From Candidatus Nitrososphaera evergladensis SR1 (GTDB taxonomy: Archaea; Thermoproteota; Nitrososphaeria; Nitrososphaerales; Nitrososphaeraceae), in the NCBI RefSeq assembly GCF_000730285.1, contig NZ_CP007174.1:2294001-2358000 (forward strand): DNA of 64,000 bases, given 5' to 3'. The translations under genes were made by a program, and so were the position numbers. Positions 26,644 to 31,801 of the stretch are shown one piece after another. The notes under the pieces are model-generated. The model was given only the letters and a program-made list of their open reading frames with translations. It did not search any database and was not told the DNA's origin. Within the stretch, counting starts at the first letter, position 1. Every line of letters begins with the position of its first letter.

Positions 26644-27981
26644 GTGCCTCCCCGGATAGAGCTGCAGAGCAGGAAAAAGTGGACCGTAAACGGCACCTCA
26701 AGGATAAGGCCGGCTCAAGAGACCTTGCAAAAGGTCATGCCCCTCACCAAAAAGATAGGGGTCACGAGGCTTGCAGACATTACGGACATGGACGTGCTCC
26801 GCATACCAAACTATTCGGCAGTCCTGCCCGGCACCGAAGACTACATCTGGGTGTACAGCGGCAAGGGCCCCACGAGGGAGCACGCGATGGCAAGCGCGCT
26901 CATGGAAAGCATCGAGCGCTATTCCTCATTGCCCGCAGGAGGCCCGCGGAACTTTGTCAGGGCAAGCTATGCAGAACTGTCAAAGTCGCAAAAAGTCTTG
27001 CACCCTGACGAGATCGTCGAGCCGACGCGCTTTGAGTACCGCGACGACATGCTGATGGACTTTCTTCCGGGCTTTGACATCGCCAACAATAACGAGGAGG
27101 TGATGGTGCCAGCCCCAATAGCGCTTTTCCGCTACAACCCGCCGGCCCCGGCGGTAAACCCGTTTTCATATTTTCACACAAACGGCCTTGCGTCTGGCAA
27201 CGTGATGGAAGAGGCTGTCTGCCATTCGCTGTGCGAGGTCATAGAGCGCGACGCAATGAGCGTGGCAGAACTCCGCGCAAGCGCCATTCCCTTCCATGTC
27301 CTGCGAAGCATCATCCATTCGCTCAACGCCGCTGGCATCCAGACAAAACCAATGCAGGCAGACAGGTTCGTCGACGATCCGGGCATTTTCCCCGACGTCG
27401 ACATTTCCGAAGTCGACTTCGAGCCTGTCAGAAAACTGGTGAAAAAATTTGACAGGGCCGCCATCCCGCTCATAATCAAGGACATCACGTCGGATATTGG
27501 CGTCCCCACGTTCAACGCAAGCAGCATCGAGTGGGTCACGCACGACTATGGCTACCTTGCAGAAGGCCACGGCACGCACCCTGACGCAAGGATTGCCCTT
27601 TTGAGGGCGATAACGGAGGTGTCGCAGACTCGCGCCGCCAACATACAGGGAGCGCGCGACGACCTGCGCAAGATAAGGTACGGCGAGAACAACACGGACG
27701 ACAAGAGGGCCTGGCAGTTCATGCCGTCTACTAAAAAGATCAAGTTTTCAGAGGTCAAGACGTACTTCCACGAGGACATACTTGACGACATCAAGTTCAT
27801 ACTTGACAGGCTGAGAAACGCCGGCCTTGGCAGGGCGATAATCGTCGACCTGACAAACCCGGACCTTGCAGTCCCGGTCGTCAGGGCTATCGTGCCGGGG
27901 CTTGAGACTTTCAAGATAACAAAGTCGGTGGTGGGAATGAGAGCGAGGGCGCTTTTTAGGCAATGGCAAAAAAACCAATAA
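26644..27981 (+). CDS. YcaO-family ATP-dependent cyclodehydratase/thioamide synthetase
   Basis: A 445-residue YcaO protein, starting at GTG. YcaO enzymes activate a peptide amide with ATP, then attack it with an internal or external nucleophile. Family features seen: EHAMASALMESIERYSSL and FHTNGLASGN, EEAVCHSLCEVIERDAMS, and LLRAITEVSQTRAANIQGARDD, the conserved ATP/Mg-binding glutamate-rich helices. The stop overlaps the TfuA-like gene by 19 bases, so the two are coupled. YcaO-TfuA pairs install a thioamide, as in methyl-coenzyme M reductase thioglycine and thioviridamide-like peptides. The target in this organism is not evident. Confidence 0.92.
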   Translation: MPPRIELQSRKKWTVNGTSRIRPAQETLQKVMPLTKKIGVTRLADITDMDVLRIPNYSAVLPGTEDYIWVYSGKGPTREHAMASALMESIERYSSLPAGGPRNFVRASYAELSKSQKVLHPDEIVEPTRFEYRDDMLMDFLPGFDIANNNEEVMVPAPIALFRYNPPAPAVNPFSYFHTNGLASGNVMEEAVCHSLCEVIERDAMSVAELRASAIPFHVLRSIIHSLNAAGIQTKPMQADRFVDDPGIFPDVDISEVDFEPVRKLVKKFDRAAIPLIIKDITSDIGVPTFNASSIEWVTHDYGYLAEGHGTHPDARIALLRAITEVSQTRAANIQGARDDLRKIRYGENNTDDKRAWQFMPSTKKIKFSEVKTYFHEDILDDIKFILDRLRNAGLGRAIIVDLTNPDLAVPVVRAIVPGLETFKITKSVVGMRARALFRQWQKNQ

Positions 27982-28646
27982 TATTTTTAGGCCCAAGCCT
28001 GAGCCACGAAAAGGCAAGCAAGATCTTGCCGGAGGCAGAGTTTCGGCCGCCGGCCAAAAAGGGCGACTTGCTGAGGCTGGCTGCAAGCCCCGATGTCTCT
28101 ATGGTCGGGCTTGTCGACGGCGTGTTCCTGCAGGACTATCCCCCCACGCCGATTGAAGTGTACCAGTTGGCCAGGCGGGAAGGCGTCCTCTTGGCGGGGG
28201 CTGCAAGCCTAGGCGCGCTGCGCGCAGTTGAGCTGGAAAAGTTTGGCATGGTCGGCATCGGCAGGGTATTTGAACTGTACAAGGGCGGCAAGATAGACGC
28301 CGACGACGAGGTTGCAGTCACGTTTGCAGACGGAGATTTCCACCTCCAGTCAGAGGCGATGGTGGACATTCGCTACAACCTGTTCCTTGCGCACAAAAAA
28401 GGCATAATCGGCAAGGACACGAAAAAGGCGCTTGCCAAGGTTGCAAAGGCCACCTATTTTCCACACCGCAACTATCCCGACATTATCGAGGCGACGCGGA
28501 GGAAATACCGCGACAGTCTGAATAATTATGACGACATTGATGCCTTTCAAACATATATTGAAAAAAACAGAAAGAGCCTGAAAGAGATGGACGCAATCAA
28601 GCTGGTCGAGTTTTTCAAGGCCCGTCTTGGGGCGGAAAAGAAATAG
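27963..28646 (+). CDS. TfuA-like protein, YcaO partner
   Basis: A 227-residue TfuA-domain protein, thought to help YcaO with sulfur delivery in thioamide formation. The start MAKKPIIFLGPSLSHEKASKI is the classic TfuA N-terminus, and VDGVFLQDYPPTPIEVYQLARR, LAGAASLGALRAVELEKFGMVG and the DGDFHLQSEAMVDIRYNL segment follow. It overlaps the ycaO 3' end by 19 bases. The C-terminal third is charged and helical. No sulfurtransferase or RiPP-precursor gene is obvious next to it, but a cysteine desulfurase is present elsewhere in the window. Confidence 0.9.
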   Translation: MAKKPIIFLGPSLSHEKASKILPEAEFRPPAKKGDLLRLAASPDVSMVGLVDGVFLQDYPPTPIEVYQLARREGVLLAGAASLGALRAVELEKFGMVGIGRVFELYKGGKIDADDEVAVTFADGDFHLQSEAMVDIRYNLFLAHKKGIIGKDTKKALAKVAKATYFPHRNYPDIIEATRRKYRDSLNNYDDIDAFQTYIEKNRKSLKEMDAIKLVEFFKARLGAEKK

Positions 28647-28691: not shown

Positions 28692-29267
28692 ATGAAGATA
28701 TACACCAAGACAGGCGACAAGGGCGAGACCGGCCTTATCGGAGGCAGGCGCGTCAGCAAGGCAGACTTGCGTATAGTGGCCTACGGAGCAGTGGACGAAC
28801 TGAACTCCAGCATCGGCCTTGCGGTGTCGTCACTTTGCGGAAAAGAAAAGGTGTTTTCCGACTTGGCAGATGTCTTGACGCAGGTGCAAAACGACCTCTT
28901 TATAGTCGGCTCGGACCTTGCCGATTCCGACTATCCAAAAAGCCAGTACAACACGCCGCGCACAGACGAAAATATGGCCTCCGCGCTAGAGCCTGTCATC
29001 GACAAATTTGAATCAGAACTGGAACCGATAACGTTTTTCATACTGCCGGGCGGAAGCGCCGAAGCGTCGATGCTGCACGTGTGCAGGGGCGTTGCAAGGC
29101 GCGCCGAGACGGCCGCGGTGGCGCTCTACAGGTCAGAGAGCATAAACCCCGCCATAATCATGTACCTGAACAGGCTGGCAGACCTGCTGTTTGTGGCGGC
29201 AAGGCTTGCAAACAAGAGGCAGGGCGTGCCTGACGTGGCATGGAAGAAAAAGAAGTCGTCACAATAA
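28692..29267 (+). CDS. Cob(I)alamin adenosyltransferase, PduO type
   Basis: A 191-residue trimeric enzyme that transfers adenosine from ATP to cob(I)alamin to make coenzyme B12. The ATP-binding N-terminus KIYTKTGDKGETGLIGGRRVSK, then VDELNSSIGLA, the PGGSAEASMLHVCRGVARRAET segment with conserved Arg and Glu, and LNRLADLLFVAARLANK match PduO. Adenosylcobalamin is needed by methylmalonyl-CoA mutase and class II ribonucleotide reductase in these archaea, so it supports the carbon cycle whose carboxylase lies at 3-7 kb. It is 46 bp after tfuA. Confidence 0.95.
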   Translation: MKIYTKTGDKGETGLIGGRRVSKADLRIVAYGAVDELNSSIGLAVSSLCGKEKVFSDLADVLTQVQNDLFIVGSDLADSDYPKSQYNTPRTDENMASALEPVIDKFESELEPITFFILPGGSAEASMLHVCRGVARRAETAAVALYRSESINPAIIMYLNRLADLLFVAARLANKRQGVPDVAWKKKKSSQ

Positions 29268-29272
29268 TAAAA

Positions 29273-29280
29273 CCTTAAAT
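29273..29280 (+). promoter_or_regulatory. TATA-like element for the small membrane protein at 29301
   Basis: CCTTAAAT lies 21-28 bp upstream of the TTG at 29301. It supports that a 62-residue product starts there. Confidence 0.5.
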
Positions 29281-29300
29281 GCTGCATCTAGACATTGTAG

Positions 29301-29489
29301 TTGTTGGACCACGTCAGAAACGTCACGCTCATTATCGTGATAACGGCGCTCATGGCGTTTGGCCTGATAGGAGTTACCCTGCTTGTTGACCTCCTTCCAA
29401 TACCCGCAATGCACGCTGCTTCTTCTTCTACTACTGCTGCTGCCAATATCGTCGATCAAGTAGCTTTAAAGTCTGGATTTACCAATTGA
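29301..29489 (+). CDS. Small single-helix exported or membrane protein
   Basis: A 62-residue product starting at TTG. A strong hydrophobic helix (TLIIVITALMAFGLIGVTLL) precedes a possible cleavage region (PAMHAASS) and then a 20-residue Ser/Thr/Ala-rich tail ending SGFTN. It looks like a short secreted peptide or a bitopic membrane protein. An upstream TATA-like element at the right distance supports expression. It is near the YcaO-TfuA pair but separated by the adenosyltransferase gene, so a precursor-peptide role would be speculation. Confidence 0.5.
   Translation: MLDHVRNVTLIIVITALMAFGLIGVTLLVDLLPIPAMHAASSSTTAAANIVDQVALKSGFTN
29463..29470 (+). promoter_or_regulatory. TATA-like element for the C2H2 protein gene at 29497
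   Basis: GCTTTAAA-like core about 27-34 bp upstream of the ATG at 29497, inside the end of the preceding small gene. Confidence 0.45.
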
Positions 29490-29496
29490 GACACAT

Positions 29497-29625
29497 ATGG
29501 AAGAAGATCAAGTCAGCTGCCCCTACTGTGGTTCCGCCTTTAAGGACAAGGAACAACTTTCAAAGCACATCGACAGGATCCACCACGGTTCTGGCCTGCT
29601 TGAAGGCGACACCACGAAATGGTGA
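29497..29625 (+). CDS. Very small C2H2 zinc-finger protein (42 aa)
   Basis: A complete 42-residue reading frame. Residues 8-29 form a classical C2H2 finger, CPYCGSAFKDKEQLSKHIDR followed by IHH, with the hydrophobic F and L at the usual positions. A promoter-like element lies upstream and the next gene starts inside its last codons (ATG at 29619), so it is coupled to the HD hydrolase. Short single-finger proteins like this are common in archaea; they may bind DNA, RNA or a partner protein. Target unknown. Confidence 0.75.
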   Translation: MEEDQVSCPYCGSAFKDKEQLSKHIDRIHHGSGLLEGDTTKW

Positions 29626-30188
29626 AAGATAAAGACCTAACTCCATTTTTTGACGCGGTCATTGGGTTAAAGTACGTCAGGCGCGCGGGGTGGGCTGCCA
29701 AGGTTGGAATCAAAGACCCGGAATCAGTTGCGGACCATTCATTTGCCATGTGCGCAGTCGGCATGGCGCTTTCGGACATTCTGGGTTTTGACACCCGGAA
29801 GGTGCTAAAGATGATAGTGCTACACGACCTGGCAGAATCTGCGGTGGGCGATTATATGCCCGGAGAGGTCAGCATAATTCAAAAGCGGCAGGAAGAGGAT
29901 GGCGCGATGCAAAAGATCCTTGCGTGCCTGCCTGCAAAGGTAAGGTCTGATTATGCAAAAATCTGGCGCGAGTATCTGCAGGACAAGACAAAAGAGGCAA
30001 GGTTTGTGCACAGGATTGACAAACTAGAGATGGCCCTGCAAGCGGCAAGGTATGCAAAAGACGGGCACCCGGAGGAACTGCTGGCGCAGTTTTTCGATTC
30101 GGCGCACAAGGCAGTCGACATTGATGACGACATCTTGGCAGAAATCCTAAAGTCTTTAAGCCCGGCTCAGCGCATGAAAAACCGATAA
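29619..30188 (+). CDS. HD-domain hydrolase (HDDC2/YfbR-like)
   Basis: A 189-residue metal-dependent phosphohydrolase. The metal-binding set is visible: ESVADHSFAMCAVG (first His), MIVLHDLAESAVGDYMPGE (the HD pair and a conserved Glu) and the later FVHRIDKLEMALQA (final Asp). This pattern matches the HDDC2/YfbR group, which includes 5'-deoxynucleotidases. The start overlaps the C2H2-finger gene by 7 bases. A nucleotide-pool cleaning role is inferred from the family. Confidence 0.9.
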   Translation: MVKDKDLTPFFDAVIGLKYVRRAGWAAKVGIKDPESVADHSFAMCAVGMALSDILGFDTRKVLKMIVLHDLAESAVGDYMPGEVSIIQKRQEEDGAMQKILACLPAKVRSDYAKIWREYLQDKTKEARFVHRIDKLEMALQAARYAKDGHPEELLAQFFDSAHKAVDIDDDILAEILKSLSPAQRMKNR

Positions 30189-30194
30189 TAACAC

Positions 30195-30518
30195 ATGCAG
30201 TATTTTACGGCTCTCAAGATAGGCGAAAAGAGGGTCAAGGTCGCGCAGGATCTTTTGGCAAAATACACAGGGACTGCGATGCCGGCGCTTGCGCTCAAGG
30301 ACAACAAGGACAACAAGTGGGAGCCGGTGGGCGAGGAGAATCTCTATGCGATAGTGAAAGAGCCGGGCGGCTACATGATCGCGCTGTGCGACAACAAGGG
30401 AGTCGCAAAGGCAATCGCGCAGTGGTTTGCTGAGGACACCAAGAACCAGATCGTTGAAAAGATAAAGTCCGAGCAGAACATGCAGGAATATTTCGGCAAG
30501 CTGTCGCTTCCGATATAA
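30195..30518 (+). CDS. Conserved small protein, unknown function
   Basis: A 107-residue soluble protein directly after the HD hydrolase (6-bp gap). It has mixed alpha/beta character: a helix with KRVKVAQDLLAKYTGT, strands around NLYAIVKEPGGYMIALCDN, and a helical end DTKNQIVEKIKSEQNMQEYFG. There are no cysteine clusters or membrane segments. I do not recognise the family. Gene order suggests co-transcription with the hydrolase. Confidence 0.6.
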   Translation: MQYFTALKIGEKRVKVAQDLLAKYTGTAMPALALKDNKDNKWEPVGEENLYAIVKEPGGYMIALCDNKGVAKAIAQWFAEDTKNQIVEKIKSEQNMQEYFGKLSLPI

Positions 30519-30553
30519 CTTTATTATAGCTGAAAAGGACTACGTGAATAGCT

Positions 30554-31801
30554 TTGGCAGCAGGCAAGCACGAGCAAGAGATCGAGGTCAAGGGACACCT
30601 CATCGACTCGATGATACTTACAAGGATATTTGACCACGTCATGGACCTAAAGGGCGACTTTCAGGTCCTCGAATTCACGGTAGGCAAGAAAAAGAAGGAC
30701 CCAAGCTACGCCCGCCTGCTCGTGCGGGGCAAGGATGAGGAGCACCTTGAGCGCATACTGGAGGCCGTGTACCGGGAGGGCGCGCAGCCCGTCTCTGTGC
30801 AGGAGGCAAGGCTCGTGCCTGCAAGCGCCGACTGCGTCATGCCCGACGACTTTTACAGCACGACCAACAACCCCACGCAGGTTTTCCACTCTGGCCGGTG
30901 GATAGACGTCCAGAACATGATGATGGACAAGTGCATAGTTGTAGATGTCAAGAGCATGACTGCAGAGTGCAAGATGATCCGCGACCTGAAAAAAGGCGAC
31001 ATGATTGTAGTAGGCGAGCGCGGCGTGAAAATAACGCCGCAGGAGCGCCCGAGGGAAGGCGTCGACATTTTTCAGTTCATGTCAAGCTCCAGTTCCAGCG
31101 AGCGCCCCACGCAGCACATCGCCCGAAAGGTTGCAGACGACATTTACAATACCAAAAAAGAGGGAGGCAAGATAATCGTGGTTTCAGGCCCAGTGCTTGT
31201 GCACTCGGGAGCGTCAGAAGCGCTTGCGCGCCTTATCAGGATGGGCTACATCGACGGTCTGCTTGCAGGAAACGCAATCGCCGTCCACGACGTTGAAAAC
31301 GCGCTTTTGGGCACGTCGCTTGGGATGCACGTCAAGGACGGCACGCTTGCTGTCAGGGGCCACCGCAACCACATGCAGGCCATAAACGAGGTGTTCAAGG
31401 CCGGCGGCCTGAAGGCGATGGTGGAGAAAAAGATCCTGAAAAGCGGCGTGATGTACGAATGCATCAAGCATGACGTGCCGTTCGTTCTTGCAGGCTCTAT
31501 CCGCGACGACGGCCCGATACCCGACGTCGTGACAGACGTGGTGGAGGCGCAGCGCAGGTACAAAAAAGTACTAAAGGGCGCCAAGATGGTGCTGATGTTC
31601 TCGACAATGCTCCACTCCATTGCAGTCGGCAACATGCTCCCCTCGTCGGTAAAGGTGGTGGCAGTTGATATTAGCCAGCCCGTCGTGACAAAGCTGGTGG
31701 ACAGGGGCACGGCGCAGGCAGTGGGCATCGTGACGGACGTTGGCGCGTTCTTGCCCATAGTGGCAGACCACCTTGAAGAAAAGGTGGCAAGGCGCAAGTA
31801 G
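30554..31801 (+). CDS. Archaeal ornithine cyclodeaminase (LOR/SDH-like, TIGR00300 family)
   Basis: A 415-residue two-domain protein. The N-terminal domain (about 1-110) is the LOR/SDH conserved region (GHLIDSMILTRIFDHVMDLKG), and the C-terminal domain binds NAD (IIVVSGPVLVHSGASEALAR, GNAIAVHDVENALLGTSLG, and VLAGSIRDDGPIPDVVTD). This family was shown in a methanogen to convert ornithine to proline with ammonia release, and the same domain sits at the C-terminus of cyanobacterial AgrE. The start is TTG at 30554. Proline synthesis is the inferred role. Confidence 0.85.
   Translation: MAAGKHEQEIEVKGHLIDSMILTRIFDHVMDLKGDFQVLEFTVGKKKKDPSYARLLVRGKDEEHLERILEAVYREGAQPVSVQEARLVPASADCVMPDDFYSTTNNPTQVFHSGRWIDVQNMMMDKCIVVDVKSMTAECKMIRDLKKGDMIVVGERGVKITPQERPREGVDIFQFMSSSSSSERPTQHIARKVADDIYNTKKEGGKIIVVSGPVLVHSGASEALARLIRMGYIDGLLAGNAIAVHDVENALLGTSLGMHVKDGTLAVRGHRNHMQAINEVFKAGGLKAMVEKKILKSGVMYECIKHDVPFVLAGSIRDDGPIPDVVTDVVEAQRRYKKVLKGAKMVLMFSTMLHSIAVGNMLPSSVKVVAVDISQPVVTKLVDRGTAQAVGIVTDVGAFLPIVADHLEEKVARRK

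Follow-up and report, generated by a model that had tools for sequence, protein, structure and literature searches.

The overlapping ycaO and tfuA genes of the window (the whole 64-kb stretch of DNA analyzed here) are best read as an old, vertically inherited thioamidation system specific to ammonia-oxidizing archaea (AOA). The most likely substrate of this system is a separately encoded small protein of about 58 residues, a combined reading toward which we lean modestly. This small protein is the best candidate for the missing target or partner of the pair. By analogy with characterized relatives, TfuA would release sulfide from a sulfur carrier (its role is summarized in PMC13063428 as sulfide release from a thiocarboxylated carrier), and YcaO would activate a backbone amide with ATP, the amide oxygen being swapped for sulfur. 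The acceptor would be the small protein, which resembles an NHLP leader, and not a ribosomal or MCR-like protein. It would be made from a monocistronic gene of its own, divergent to ycaO in most AOA and elsewhere (about 1,320,578-1,320,754) in the genome that carries the window. Because the small protein looks like a leader without a cleavable core, we expect the thioamide to sit either within the leader domain or in the short C-terminal tail, and the product to be kept in the cell rather than secreted.

The first-pass annotation described an overlapping YcaO-TfuA unit, and this description holds: both reading frames are present (Table 1), they share 19 nt (27963-27981), and each matches its Pfam family (PF02624 for YcaO, E 1.3e-74; PF07812 for TfuA). 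The nearest NCBIfam models, TIGR03266 for YcaO (285 bits, below the cut-off of 365) and NF033432 for TfuA (199 bits, below the cut-off of 235), are those of the McrA-glycine thioamidation pair, to which the window pair is related; against NF040716, YcaO scores 32 bits with a cut-off of 700. In alignments, S84, M87, E88, E91, and R92 of YcaO are invariant across AOA and MCR-type sequences, and the ATP-site motifs are intact, with no variation between AOA and MCR-linked enzymes. In having YcaO paired with TfuA and these motifs preserved, the window shows what marks YcaO-TfuA thioamide-forming systems. An AlphaFold model of YcaO, for which the window sequence and methanogen relatives served as input, reached a pTM of 0.86 with low confidence at residues 215-246, and its best PDB match was the M. 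jannaschii YcaO (6peu/6pe3). A TfuA profile of AOA and MCR-type sequences matched the solved TfuA 6xp8 at 3.3e-71. No leader-binding (RRE) domain separate from the YcaO domain was recognized with Pfam or NCBIfam. Only one YcaO gene is present in the genome (a single contig of 2.95 Mb), and PF02249 (McrA) has no match there, in keeping with the earlier description of an organism without MCR; the sampled AOA are likewise without a PF02249 match. An McrA-like target was rejected on this ground and because no exact G[FY][FY]G[FY]D motif occurs in the genome.

Table 1. Positions (window numbering) of the YcaO-TfuA pair and of the YcaO motifs and insertion region discussed in the text
Feature	Position	Strand	Description
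ycaO	26644..27981	+	445 aa; predicted ATP-dependent amide-activating (thioamide-forming) enzyme, AOA clade
tfuA	27963..28646	+	227 aa; predicted sulfur-delivery partner of YcaO; PF07812 2.2e-35; AOA clade 100/100
YcaO motif S-A-L-M-E-S-I-E-R (residues 84-92)	26893..26919	+	From alignments
YcaO motif E-V-I-E-R-D-A	27235..27255	+	ERD invariant; from alignments
Region with AOA-specific ~35-residue insertion (residues 213-258)	27280..27417	+	Right after ERDA; from alignment spacing, low model confidence

To place the pair, we surveyed 250 genomes of the class and found TfuA in 42 of them. Every genome of f1, the family of the window, has it (35 genomes), as do six from f3 and one from f5, and no f2 genome does. 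YcaO scored above its cut-off in the same 42 genomes, and an apparently decayed YcaO in one f2 genome (G155) was rejected as a chance match. We take f1 to be Nitrososphaeraceae, f2 Nitrosopumilaceae, and f3 Nitrosocaldaceae, going by the known AOA groups. Across a phylum sample of 349 genomes, the TfuA carriers were 26 genomes of families f22 and f51, all McrA-bearing, and eight AOA without McrA. A comparison with methanogen YcaO, one of the checks proposed in the first-pass annotation, was made with a maximum likelihood tree of 65 proteins. All AOA YcaO fell in a single clade (100/100) with a long stem. This clade is sister to the MCR-linked YcaO (joint branch 88/90) and not nested among them, and within it the f3 and f5 sequences group together. 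The TfuA tree also gathered the AOA sequences in one clade (100/100) and left the MCR side without resolution (p-AU 0.253). The AOA enzymes further differ in the spacing between ERD and DITSD, which is 77-81 residues in AOA YcaO, 41-46 in YcaO of the MCR type, and 45-48 in bacterial YcaO linked to TfuA; an insertion of ~35 residues after ERDA is absent from both of the latter groups. The insertion region is a candidate docking site for the small protein.

The large neighbors of the pair differ by genus, and none is common to different families. Four genes of the same strand come after the pair in genus g1, to which the window belongs (window 28692-31801). They encode a PduO-type cobalamin adenosyltransferase, an HD phosphohydrolase, a 107-aa orphan, and an NPN-dependent ornithine cyclodeaminase. 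The three enzymes were rejected as conserved partners because they adjoin the pair only in this genus. No conserved exporter, peptidase, or further modifying enzyme was found around the pair in AOA, which agrees with the earlier remark that no export gene stands beside it. A scan for small conserved open reading frames returned one family, of 55-65 residues, that is divergent to ycaO in 10 of 12 AOA genera from three families. The gap to ycaO is -39 to 300 nt, or about 1-1.5 kb in genus g19. The small gene is not beside the pair in genus g1 and its sister genus g3, from whose pairs it has moved away, and no relative of its family occurs in the 64-kb window. The first-pass statement that no precursor adjoins the pair is therefore correct for the window but does not extend to most related genomes. 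An overlapping pair in an organism without MCR, with no precursor or export gene next to it, should nonetheless have a target other than MCR, as that annotation argued.

A search for genes that co-occur with the pair had also been suggested, and it identified the same small protein. Searched against the 250 class genomes, a profile (A3) built from 19 members detected the ~58-residue protein in 40 of the 42 that have the pair, each time at E <= 1e-21, and no convincing copy in the 208 genomes without the pair, where the best match (4e-4) fell within a 990-aa frame. In the two remaining pair-bearing genomes (G184 and G223), the YcaO match lies 563 and 256 bases from a contig start, so the divergent small gene is probably off the contig. 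The small protein had no match in 27 McrA-bearing genomes and is absent from MCR-type and bacterial pair loci; a search for plasmid-borne relatives found none. As a guard against circularity, we used held-out models trained on one set of families and tested on the other. A model of f3 and f5 alone recovered all f1 copies (that of the window's genome at 2.4e-13), and a model of f1 alone recovered all f3 and f5 copies (7.5e-10 to 1.1e-14), with cross-family recovery overall at E 4e-8 to 1e-15. In the window's genome, the small gene (1320578-1320754) lies ~1.0 Mb from the pair (2320644-2322646). Throughout g1 and g3 its neighbors are always a Kef-type antiporter gene on one side and a DNA-glycosylase-like gene on the other (names given by reading the sequence). 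It is the sole gene of its transcription unit, and no exporter, peptidase, or further modifying enzyme is conserved around it. Two observations give good support to the tie between the pair and the small protein, namely synteny in three families and the retention of both once they had been decoupled. Taken by itself, co-occurrence is less telling than its counts imply, since presence runs along family lines and there may have been very few losses.

Purifying selection acts on the small gene, with a median dN/dS of 0.20 across 72 comparable pairs. In most copies a TATA-like box precedes a TTG start codon by ~25-35 nt, an arrangement that fits leaderless archaeal mRNAs. The encoded domain is conserved and its tail variable, the most constant residues being A17, F23, R24, and L35 (58-position core, numbered from zero). 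Most of the 19 members match two leader families of the NHLP clan, 16 of them NF038399 (E <= 0.01) and 14 TIGR03793; the scores of 15-26 bits are all below the cut-offs of 40-51, a weak but consistent signal whose likeness is leader-type and not DNA-binding. The small protein has no GG site, hypervariable core, or conserved C-terminal tail and ends where a RiPP core would start. A core behind the stop codon was rejected because the frame past the stop is not conserved. Judged by these sequence features, the small protein is a leader-like domain without a core and not a textbook RiPP precursor. In the first-pass annotation, the proposal of a new thioamidated protein was to be refuted by a precursor found to co-occur with the pair. 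This objection applies in part. What co-occurs is an NHLP-leader-like protein, but one that has no core, and the proposal survives in altered form with this protein as the candidate. The same genome also encodes a 92-aa NHLP-like protein (L256:9620-9895 (-), ~387,620-387,895) with a weak match to the small protein (4.7e-5) and to TIGR03793; we rejected it as a second copy and regard it as another NHLP-like protein, possibly a separate precursor.

Each known system shares part of this arrangement. The McrA-glycine pair of methanogens (TIGR03266 and NF033432; PMC5589413) has the same overlapping two-gene unit and motifs and forms the sister clade, its YcaO being 34-41% identical to that of AOA. 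The AOA system differs in that its genome has no McrA, its scores are below both cut-offs, its clade lies outside the MCR-linked clade, its YcaO has the ~35-residue insertion and no counterpart of the methanogen GYER-KR-N-W stretch, and it has a small-protein partner. Bacterial thioamidated RiPP clusters (PMC6511847, PMC8120280) likewise combine the pair with a short leader-type peptide, and a Rhizobium pair adjoins a Nif11-leader precursor. Of the features of such clusters, AOA have the linked leader-type peptide gene but no cleavage site or core and no exporter, peptidase, or modifying enzyme; the AOA small protein is moreover conserved family-wide, and the two groups are set apart in both the YcaO and TfuA trees. 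With NHLP leader precursors (TIGR03793, NF038399, PF14407; PMC2887384) the small protein shares the leader domain and its signature, A..PEFR..L...P...L..Y, but it scores below all cut-offs and stops ahead of the GG site, without a core. Its distance from the modifying genes has precedent, since NHLP precursors can be remote from theirs and TOMM precursors of the Bacillus cereus group lie >1 Mb away (PMC2887384). Finally, the E. coli YcaO, which thioamidates uL16 (PMC13063428), also acts outside MCR and outside a RiPP cluster. It is acidic, has a ~150-residue TPR region, and works without TfuA, whereas the AOA enzyme is near neutral (pI 6.88 in the window, AOA median 6.46) and TfuA-linked. Because E. 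coli YcaO thioamidates uL16, the RimO-type alternative raised in the first-pass annotation is obsolete.

Serving as the substrate is the simplest role for the small protein, and a trans-acting leader or adaptor is its main rival. Against the substrate reading stand the missing core, GG site, and conserved tail, NHLP matches below their cut-offs, the lack of an RRE domain, and the small number of independent losses. A leader acting in trans would bind YcaO, perhaps at the AOA-specific insertion, and activate it or direct it to another protein, a possibility we regard as unlikely. It would suit a leader-like domain with neither core nor cleavage site, a conserved domain with a variable tail, and an AOA-only insertion beside an active-site motif. 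NHLP leaders are three-helix bundles, and YcaO engages the folded domain by protein-protein contacts (PMC12455567), which suits the substrate reading too. However, the trans-acting role requires a further target protein, and the literature searched gave no example of a natural leader without a core that serves YcaO in trans.

Slightly less probable still, in our estimate, is that the target is a conserved protein of housekeeping or metabolism, comparable to uL16 in E. coli and McrA in methanogens, and that the small protein is no more than a fellow traveler or operon regulator. Two protein targets of YcaO are known, no RiPP genes are conserved around the pair in AOA, and divergent placement is common for regulators. 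Yet the YcaO of the window (pI 6.9, 445 aa, no ~150-residue TPR region) is unlike the acidic uL16 type, McrA and its exact motif are missing from the genome, and the small protein is leader-like rather than DNA-binding-like and was kept after separation from the pair in two genera. That the pair is a remnant of methanogenesis without a specific function seems very improbable to us. Its closest characterized relatives do modify MCR, and the TfuA carriers of the sampled phylum are McrA-bearing genomes and AOA. However, no sampled genome of the window's family has lost the pair, its motifs are invariant, and the AOA clade, with its own insertion, lies outside and not inside the MCR clade.

The presence of the pair in AOA is not new: homologs close to methanogen YcaO were reported in 2017 in the eLife paper on McrA thioamidation (PMC5589413), and a survey from 2021 put the number of TfuA-related clusters in Thaumarchaeota at eight (PMC8120280). 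The literature searched held no joint mention of YcaO with Nitrososphaera or Nitrosopumilus or of thioamide with Nitrosocaldus, and no description of a core-less NHLP-type protein linked to the pair. We consider it fairly probable that such a stand-alone protein is either thioamidated in its own backbone for intracellular use or is a natural leader that acts in trans and guides YcaO toward some other protein. AOA YcaO genes have been known since 2017 without a proposed target, and a genetically tied small protein makes the question directly testable. If the proposal is true, it would be a new mode of YcaO chemistry, which would then reach a core-less precursor, and ammonia oxidizers would have their first assigned thioamidation system. 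The biology of abundant soil nitrifiers would thereby be linked to an unusual modification with sulfur. The AOA that carry the pair are those of soil and hot springs. The small protein is found in all sampled Nitrososphaera-like genomes and in other thermophilic-type AOA families and is absent, like the pair, from the small-genome family f2.

The survey also turned up other YcaO genes. Genome G201 has a second AOA-type YcaO paralog without TfuA (L087:8488-9888 (-), 52% identical). In two genomes of genus g5, a second YcaO of ~820 aa adjoins a ~346-aa protein (L084:687-3152 (-) and L085:2472-4928 (+)), possibly as an azole-forming (TOMM-like) cluster separate from the TfuA-linked pair. A methanogen-type YcaO-TfuA (L167) in a MAG titled Candidatus Nitrosotalea probably lies on a mis-binned contig.
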